Shown here one piece after another: positions 31,776-63,656 of a stretch of DNA of 64,000 nucleotides. The position numbers and the translations under genes were made by a program. The stretch spans positions 1-64,000 of the forward strand of contig JAFSGP010000031.1 of the NCBI GenBank assembly GCA_017440755.1. The letters are read 5' to 3'. Each line of letters begins with the position of its first letter. Position 1 is the stretch's first letter. The notes below the pieces were generated by a model. That model was not told the DNA's origin and did no database searches. It worked only from the letters and a program-made list of their open reading frames with translations. Source of the DNA: Clostridia bacterium. Its GTDB lineage: Bacteria > Bacillota > Clostridia > Oscillospirales > Acutalibacteraceae.

Positions 31776-31881
31776 CACCGTATAAAGTGGCTTCTGCGTA
31801 AACTCATTACCAGACTAAAAAAGAAACAGCACCACTTGGTGCTGTTTCTTTTTTGGTGCGGGCAAGAGGACTTAGAACCTC
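31776..31881. repeat. Direct repeat copy A: flank, terminator-like hairpin and partial tRNA-Leu 3' end
   Basis: A 106-bp unit that parallels 31956-32061. Its left 37 bp (31776-31812) are identical to 31956-31992. A terminator-shaped hairpin follows (AAGAAACAGCACC/GGTGCTGTTTCTT) whose stem sequence differs from copy B. It ends with 28 nt (31854-31881) matching the last 27 nt of tRNA-Leu(CAG) except for one extra base in the T-loop. The rest of the tRNA is absent, so this is a partial copy, not a gene. Confidence 0.8.
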
Positions 31882-31967
31882 GATTTCCCGTGAGGGGAGC
31901 GGGTGCAGTATTTGAAGATGGTGGTTCACGGAAAATCTGTTATACGGTGCTGCCTCACCGTATAAAG
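31882..31967. other. Structured spacer between the two tRNA-Leu 3' ends
   Basis: GATTTCCCGTGA (31882-31893) can pair with TCACGGAAAATC (31926-31937), a 12-bp stem with one G-U; then TTATACGGTG (about 31940-31949), a 6-nt loop and CACCGTATAA form a perfect 10-bp inverted repeat whose right arm is the start of repeat copy B. No open reading frame or recognised RNA family. Confidence 0.6.
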
Positions 31968-32061
31968 TGGCTTCTGCGTAAACTCATTACCAACATAAAA
32001 AACTAAGCAACACCGAATGGTGTTGCTTAGTTTTTGGTGCGGGCAAGAGGACTTGAACCTC
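31956..32061. repeat. Direct repeat copy B, ending in the intact tRNA-Leu
   Basis: Partner of 31776-31881 at a 180-bp period: same 37-bp flank, then the tRNA-Leu(CAG) terminator, then the last 27 nt of the real tRNA. Confidence 0.8.
31997..32034 (-). terminator. Terminator of tRNA-Leu(CAG)
   Basis: On the minus strand the CCA end is followed at once by AAAAACTAAGCAACACC, loop ATTC, GGTGTTGCTTAGTTTTTT. Confidence 0.9.
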
Positions 32062-32121
32062 CACCGAATTGCTCCGATATGAACCTGAATCATACGCGTC
32101 TGCCAGTTCCGCCATGCCCGC
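32035..32121 (-). tRNA. tRNA-Leu, anticodon CAG
   Basis: 87 nt including encoded CCA. Acceptor GCGGGCA pairs with TGCCCGC; the D-arm starts GCGGAACTGGC; anticodon stem TATGA/TCATA with loop TTCAGGT, reading CUG codons; a long variable arm (class II); T-arm GGAGGTTCAAGTCCTC. No clear promoter is visible just upstream on the minus strand; it lies 105 nt after the end of the GDPD gene and may be read through from it. Confidence 0.97.
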
Positions 32122-63152: not shown

Positions 63153-63239
63153 GCCGCTGTGGTGGAACTGGCAGACACAAGGGACTTAAAATCCCTCGGT
63201 GGAAACACCGTACCGGTTCGATTCCGGTCAGCGGCACCA
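63153..63239 (+). tRNA. tRNA-Leu, anticodon TAA
   Basis: 87 nt with encoded CCA. Acceptor GCCGCTG/CAGCGGC, D-arm GGTGGAACTGGC, anticodon stem AGGGA/TCCCT with loop CTTAAAA, long variable arm (CGGTGGAAACACCG), T-arm CCGGTTCGATTCCGG. Class II tRNA reading UUA/UUG. Confidence 0.97.
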
Positions 63240-63276
63240 AATACCCCCAACACGCAGATGCGTGTTGGGGGTATTT
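63240..63276 (+). terminator. tRNA-Leu(TAA) terminator
   Basis: Long perfect stem: ATACCCCCAACACGCA, loop GA, TGCGTGTTGGGGGTAT, then TTT. Confidence 0.92.
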
Positions 63277-63277
63277 T

Positions 63278-63405
63278 GCACCACTGACCACGTCGCAGAG
63301 AATTGGTCTACTTTTTCGGTTTGCGTAGCAAATGGCGACTGTTAAAGTCGCCAAGAAAAAGTATAGGAGTTGGCAAAGCCAACTCCACGGTTCAGATTCC
63401 GGTCA
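63278..63405. repeat. 128-bp structured repeat, copy 1
   Basis: Differs from copy 2 (63443-63570) at a single base. Internal pairings include GACCA/TGGTC, an outer TACTTTTTC/GAAAAAGTA stem enclosing TTTGC/GCAAA and TGGCGACT/AGTCGCCA hairpins, then GGAGTTGGC-AAA-GCCAACTCC. The right end, CGGTTCAGATTCCGGTCA, resembles the T-arm of the adjacent tRNA-Leu(TAA) with one extra base in the loop; the ends TGACC and GGTCA are inverted. No coding capacity. Probably a small mobile or dispersed element of unknown type. Confidence 0.85.
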
Positions 63406-63442
63406 CCTTGATTTCTGTACATCCGTGTGTCGGGGCTGTTTC
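63406..63442. other. Spacer between the two 128-bp repeats
   Basis: 37 bp with no recognisable feature; repeat period 165 bp. Confidence 0.5.
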
Positions 63443-63570
63443 GCACCACTGACCACGTCGCAGAGAATTGGTCTACTTTTTCGGTTTGCGGAGCAAATGG
63501 CGACTGTTAAAGTCGCCAAGAAAAAGTATAGGAGTTGGCAAAGCCAACTCCACGGTTCAGATTCCGGTCA
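63443..63570. repeat. 128-bp structured repeat, copy 2
   Basis: Same as copy 1 apart from G for T within the TTTGC-GNA-GCAAA loop region. Same orientation. The high identity suggests recent duplication or strong constraint. The 86 bp to the right (63571-63656) show no feature I can support. Confidence 0.85.
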
Positions 63571-63656
63571 GAACCTCCAAATGTGTAAATACCCATCCGA
63601 AGGTTGTATTTATGCAGGATTTTACAAAAAATCTTGCAAAAACCCTTGATTTTTTC

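Follow-up and report, generated by a model that had tools for sequence, protein, structure and literature searches.

Twin repeats behind tRNA-Leu(TAA)

The window, that is, the whole stretch of 64,000 nucleotides analyzed here (positions 1 to 64,000 of contig JAFSGP010000031.1, Clostridia bacterium assembly GCA_017440755.1), contains two tRNA genes, tRNA-Leu(TAA) and tRNA-Leu(CAG). tRNA-Leu(TAA) (63153..63239, + strand), identified with ARAGORN and Rfam RF00005, is intact and is the gene whose 3′ end, from the T-loop to CCA, recurs in the copies described below. It is followed by a terminator hairpin recognized from the sequence (Ter1; 63240..63275, +) and, just past it, by two 128-bp repeats in the same direction (63278–63405 and 63443–63570), which are identical at 127 positions, with a sole mismatch at 63326 (T/G), and lie 37 bp apart. 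The initial annotation had reported these twin copies, their spacing, their place behind the terminator and the inverted ends TGACC...GGTCA of the unit, all of which were found as described. Outside the 128 bp, the flanks of the two copies differ (4/37 matching positions on the right and 15/37 on the left), and therefore the near identity stops at the inverted ends and not at the 165-bp tandem period of the unit.

Folding of the + strand of the unit gave −50.2 kcal/mol (z = −6.3; 0/200 shuffles equally stable), as compared with z = −4.3 for the antisense strand. The hairpin-rich fold that had been claimed was recovered, with a hairpin, a three-way junction, a hairpin and a T-arm-like hairpin in this order. 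The unit had also been said to lack a reading frame; mechanical open reading frames do cross it (for instance, one of 105 aa at 63332–63649), but no sign of a real gene was found.

The left part of copy 1 (63278..63308, +), delimited by sequence and by the TGACC/GGTCA ends, starts with GCACCACTGACC and comprises a weak inverted counterpart (R′) of the end shared by the tRNA and R* (see below), followed by a linker. The inverted match of this segment to its own tRNA scored 13, which is not above background, and such matches were clearer at other loci. Next come the three-way-junction core (63309..63363, +; 74.5 bits with model R1, and covariation) and a further hairpin recognized from the fold, AGGAGTTGG-CAAAG-CCAACTCC (63365..63386, +). 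The last 18 bp of the unit, CGGTTCAGATTCCGGTCA, match the T-arm (CGGTTCGATTCCGGTCA) of the neighboring tRNA-Leu, with one base added. This segment, named R* (63388..63405, +), is a direct copy of the T-arm whose T-loop contains an additional A (GGTTC-A-GATTCCGGTCA). The initial annotation had overlooked that the unit duplicates the 3′ end of its own tRNA, a feature that alters the interpretation. The 37-bp spacer (63406..63442, +) resembles one half of a worn terminator, namely its loop and 3′ arm, as judged by comparison: its loop, ACATCCGTG, is that of the terminators of two congeneric genomes (G003 and G004). Copy 2 (63443..63570, +; 127/128) has its core at 63474–63528 and its R* at 63553–63570.

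The other tRNA of the window, tRNA-Leu(CAG) (32035..32121, − strand), bears a tail of the same type that had also gone unnoticed. Its terminator (31997..32034, −) is followed by an element body of a different type (31882..31991, −), with a stem formed by GATTTTCCGTG and CACGGGAAATC, and by R* (GAGGTTC-T-AAGTCCTCTTGCCCGCACCA; 31854..31881, −), in which the tRNA 3′ end is copied over its full length in direct orientation, with an additional base; it matches the tRNA at 20/20 positions from the T-loop to CCA. A second terminator (31817..31853, −) lies after R*, and beyond it begins a truncated second copy of the element (31776..31811, −), 36 bp of which are identical to 31956–31991. On the same contig but slightly beyond the window, a strong match to a Y1 transposase was found approximately 9.7 kb from the twin repeats (C24:73243-73599, −); the core model was silent beside it.

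Copies of the tRNA 3′ end in tRNA tails

Many tRNA tails of the window's own genome (G000) shared the same layout, in which the tRNA and its terminator are followed by a stretch similar to the tRNA 3′ end in inverted orientation, one or more folded hairpin bodies and a direct copy of the 3′ end from the T-loop, consisting of T-arm and acceptor strand. Tandem units repeat the succession of inverted copy, body and direct copy. In order to quantify this, tails of up to 500 nt were scored with the 30-nt 3′ end of their own tRNA and with those of the other tRNAs of the same genome. One survey of the own genome covered the tails of 21/30 distinct tRNAs, the others being closely trailed by another tRNA or short-tailed; in the remaining genomes, 16/28 (G016, a control from the same family), 20/30 (G126, from a second genus, plus two further loci) and 20/32 (G007) candidate regions were taken. 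The scores rest on 26 tails of the own genome, 16 of G016, 21 of G126 and 16 of G007.

With mismatched pairs as the background, the score of the own tRNA in direct orientation lay above their 99th percentile in 14/26 tails of the own genome, 13/21 of G126 and 5/16 of G007, and no outstanding direct copy was present in the 16 tails of the control G016. Counting either orientation, 16 of the 21 tails of G126 contained an own-tRNA copy above this limit. The sum of direct-copy scores was not reached by any of 10,000 permutations in the own genome, G126 or G007, and was reached by 4400 in G016; for inverted copies, the corresponding figures were 0 (own genome), 0 (G126), 128 (G007) and 1902 (G016). 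A best direct score of at least 28 was reached in 32 tails. The own tRNA was the best match in 31 of them, and the lone exception was the tail of tRNA-Trp in the own genome, which holds an R* of tRNA-Leu(TAG) type. The permutations and the control genome ruled out chance or artefact as a source of this pattern. The occurrence of imperfect copies across many contigs speaks against assembly error; one exception in G001 (L010), where a perfect inverted tRNA-Leu copy past its terminator lies beside an NN and may be an assembly artefact, was set aside and not used. Two further observations on tails are worth recording: behind tRNA-Gly(GCC) of G126 (L166), the whole unit, including tRNA 3′ end and terminator, is in perfect tandem, and the tails of tRNA-Pro(CGG) and tRNA-Leu(TAG) (L031 and L049) have in common a hairpin, TTGAATGTTCATAACGGACTTnACnGTTATGAACATT, directly 3′ of the copied CCA.

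The direct copies start at a fixed point. The exact 9-mer immediately 3′ of the T-loop TTC was present in 11/26 tails of the own genome, 12/21 of G126, 5/16 of G007 and 0/16 of G016; in mismatched pairs it occurred in 1/650, 0/420, 0/240 and 0/240, respectively. Thirty-seven direct copies were inspected at this junction: 15 showed TTC with one extra base, four an otherwise disturbed TT, 14 unrelated element sequence upstream, and four an intact T-loop (33/37 without an intact T-loop). Within the own genome, the extra base was found in 13 of 16 direct copies.

Both ends could be followed most closely in body D, a single body of 76–83 bp with the ends ACRARCTCC and GAGARGA that was counted 25 times by pattern in G126 and its congener G219; the end analysis covers the 20 of these copies that were listed, and a single place was also recorded in each of seven other genomes. 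It lies behind 13 different tRNAs altogether: Trp and Arg(CCG), and also Leu(GAG), Thr(TGT), Val(CAC), Arg(ACG), Gln(CTG), Lys(TTT), Pro(CGG), Leu(TAA), Met(CAT), Val(GAC) and Ser(GGA). A tRNA on the same strand lies within 400 nt upstream of 15/20 copies, the first copies being located 55–63 nt past the tRNA; among the other five, four belong to an array at a contig end and one is solitary. The left flank ends in GAA, the inverse of TTC, in 19/20 copies, and all 16 recognizable right ends (16/20) continue into RANCC, starting at the base after TTC. The left copy therefore begins at T54 and the right one at position 57, with an offset of 3 nt, in standard tRNA numbering. In G126, the inverted copy has its centre at the palindromic terminator. 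The own genome agrees with G126 at the right junction, but its left junction is worn or of another kind: the exact left boundary of G126 does not hold there, R′ being degenerate or extending beyond the T-loop.

Structure and distribution of the bodies

A model of the three-way-junction core (core A) was built on six hand-picked copies. The resulting 66 distinct rows had 91.5% of cells paired, with double changes at 19/21 pairs and 280 double-change cells versus 72 in shuffles, in an alignment that was fitted to the model and is hence biased towards it; slid controls reached at most 52.7% paired cells and none of 500 shuffles matched the covariation of the core. Body D was aligned model-free with MAFFT (15 of 16 distinct copies, a divergent Trp copy being omitted) and tested against a structure derived from single-copy folds. 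Here, 95.7% of cells were paired, with double changes at 14/27 pairs and 45 double-change cells versus 12. Its internal loop GTGAG/GAAG is near-invariant and the helix past the loop varies freely. The covariation supports the earlier proposal of a structured element rather than a decayed gene. Neither of the two outcomes that would have told against the initial annotation, a repeat confined to this locus or stems lacking covariation, was observed. Within the window, only tRNA scored above the cut-off of a known Rfam family, all other matches with E ≤1 falling below it. Palindromic structured RNAs of human microbiomes are listed in PMC8040213.

In the own genome, blastn detected no copies of the exact 128-bp unit other than the two at this locus, and a diverged relative lies at the same tRNA in G008. 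This gave a first impression of a single-locus repeat, which was reversed by the covariance model: the core occurs elsewhere, so that the locus is not unique, and the own genome holds 11 core-A copies, of which four follow a tRNA, one lies just upstream of tRNA-Thr and six are elsewhere. Core copies away from tRNAs were found at protein-gene ends, in apparent rplU leaders and in arrays; at the protein-gene ends, hairpins made of the last codons of the gene and their inverse abut the core. Copies in an apparent rplU (L21) leader were observed at L065 and L068, in two genomes of one genus. Relative to the tRNA, the core was found in both orientations. Under the stricter filters applied to the large genome sets, with which some weak matches were lost, the core model detected 17/398 genomes (9/135 genera) of the family at E ≤0.01 and 15/394 genomes (12/169 genera) of the order at E ≤0.001. 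An exact pattern of the core gave two matches in genome_contigs and none in viral_contigs, an exact 24-mer pattern gave no locus in genome_contigs, and blastn of the unit gave no match in phages and plasmids. The core pattern is carried by a related goat-rectum Clostridia MAG, RGIG2955; it was also matched in a MAG labelled Rhodobacteraceae (L134, CALCPC010000453.1), which may be chance or contamination.

Occupancy of the tRNA-Leu(TAA) tail differs within the genus: the own genome has two units and G005 none, G008 and G004 have one unit each, of different body types, plus cargo genes, and G003 retains a left remnant plus another cargo gene. The small cargo genes of these tails (L113, L114, L016 and L018 in G003, G004, G008 and G005, respectively) differ by species, and one cargo protein, MKLFEQYK.., reappears behind tRNA-Thr(TGT) of the own genome (L118).

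Origin of the tail units

A single body whose ends are joined to 13 tRNAs at fixed T-loop positions is the signature of site-specific insertion and not of gene decay; insertion is invoked because identical body ends meet many tRNA sequences at fixed positions. We consider it probable (approximately 0.58) that the 128-bp unit represents a short insertion element without coding capacity, the target of which is the conserved T-loop (TTC|RANYCC) in the 3′ portion of tRNA genes. The locus-specific tRNA copies, the covariation and the variable occupancy of the tRNA-Leu(TAA) tail also speak for this reading. Points against it are the worn inverted copy at the window locus, the left boundary that does not hold in the own genome, the four of 37 direct copies with an intact T-loop, and the fact that only four of the 11 core-A copies of the own genome follow a tRNA. 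The elements are read as non-autonomous structured mobile elements. For this part of the initial annotation, the support is indirect and comes from the dispersed copies, the fixed ends and the Leu(TAG) end located at tRNA-Trp; an insertion event was not observed, and neither transposition, excision nor strain-level insertion polymorphism was seen in the genomes compared. The element might travel as a hairpin, either as single-stranded DNA or derived from RNA. The tRNA gene would be opened at the T-loop with the 3-nt offset, and the body would become linked to the two strands of the end on the right, as if capping one side of the break. Fold-back copying via the palindromic terminator could then rebuild a complete tRNA in front, leaving inverted and direct copies of the target and a tRNA that keeps working. 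At the 3′ ends of some protein genes, the copies appear to have arisen by the same process, and the machinery would act in trans. Three gene families were compared over 20 genomes, nine of them element-rich and 11 element-poor: a Y1 transposase was present in 5/9 and 3/11, and a reverse transcriptase in 3/9 and 1/11, respectively. Nine Y1 loci searched with R1 gave one weak match (E 0.045) and no clear core copy adjacent to the gene.

The covariation would also suit a domesticated RNA, transcribed by read-through into the tail and acting either as a switch, with the tRNA 3′ end and R* as alternative pairing partners of R′, or as a trailer for tRNA maturation or nuclease block, so that selection rather than mobility keeps R′ and R* matched. 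The near-invariant GTGAG/GAAG loop beside a covarying helix in body D and the stronger fold of the sense strand (z = −6.3 versus −4.3) agree with such a role. However, the body sits past a strong terminator, species differ in its presence at one and the same tRNA, core A occurs in both orientations to tRNAs and also at protein-gene ends, and convergent selection would not predict identical body ends at exact T-loop positions of 13 tRNAs, which makes this explanation unlikely.

Also unlikely, and placed a little lower, is that R* represents the attR of tyrosine-integrase islands or satellites of the T-loop class since shrunk to a few hairpins. The tails do resemble tRNA/tmRNA integrative islands in their intact tRNA, the displaced 3′ fragment beginning at the T-loop and the tandem arrays; after island integration the tRNA is restored and a 3′ fragment is displaced, and the Islander survey names three crossover subsites, among them the T loop (PMC4383910). 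By contrast, the units read here are only some 76–250 bp long and lack an integrase gene, for which they offer no space; the target is copied in inverted as well as direct orientation, and the integrase model has no inverted copy. The extra junction base in 13/16 direct copies of the own genome also speaks against it, and one body with the same ends at 13 tRNAs would require 13 specialized attP sites. The place of attB within the tRNA is reported to go with the integrase subfamily (PMC2647930), and the Islander survey discards candidates shorter than 2 kb or without integrase (PMC4383910), so that units as small as these would be missed. A purely replicative error, in which template switching at terminator hairpins copies tRNA ends both ways and yields the bodies as by-products, would fit the inverted copy of G126 centred on a palindromic terminator and the similar palindromes at protein-gene ends, but is highly improbable given bodies that form shared families with conserved ends and structure at many loci and genomes, and a family control genome with 0/16.

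The insertion reading was also set against other known repeats. The REP/BIME family with its RAYT consists of small covarying palindromes without open reading frame, in many copies at gene 3′ ends, all of which the present elements share. Y1 genes exist in the own genome, yet clear core copies do not lie beside them, and REP elements are not known to carry tRNA ends that match their locus. ERIC, BOX, RUP and other MITE-like repeats are non-coding, folded and modular, with inverted ends. The present elements have these properties and dispersed copies; unlike in such repeats, the ends are copied from the target gene (approximately 20 nt, direct and inverted), an arrangement that does not clearly correspond to classical terminal repeats with a short target duplication. 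A parent autonomous transposon with the same ends was not found among phages and plasmids (blastn) or in the loci read. In eukaryotes, the autonomous retroelements Ty1, Ty3 and TRE insert beside tRNA genes as safe targets; they likewise use tRNA genes in general, but insert beside them, without a T-loop junction. The target-copying geometry matches no transposition or integration reaction that we know of.

The tail architecture is real and statistically strong, and it is undescribed as far as our searches of the open-access literature reach. That it represents a new class of bacterial mobile elements, in which tiny folded nucleic acids enter nearly any tRNA gene at its T-loop through hairpin-capping or fold-back copying, so that the target is present in both an inverted and a direct copy and the tRNA is spared, is a tentative proposal to which we would give slightly less than even odds. 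If true, bacteria would own a general tRNA-seeking insertion system, following a logic like that of the eukaryotic retroelements directed to tRNA genes, but with the T-loop as its site of action. The crowded tRNA tails of these gut Clostridia, rich in hairpins, would then be explained, and the system would offer a handle for discovering a new recombinase, nuclease or polymerase activity.

Finally, genes for 23S rRNA intervening-sequence proteins (PF05635) were observed close behind tRNAs at L117 (G000:C2:26209), at G126:C36:45869 and 32956, and at G005:C51:6983. Several of these tails contain arrays of short hairpins spaced by words like ATGATG or ATGATATC, which may represent a second type of tRNA-tail insertion.
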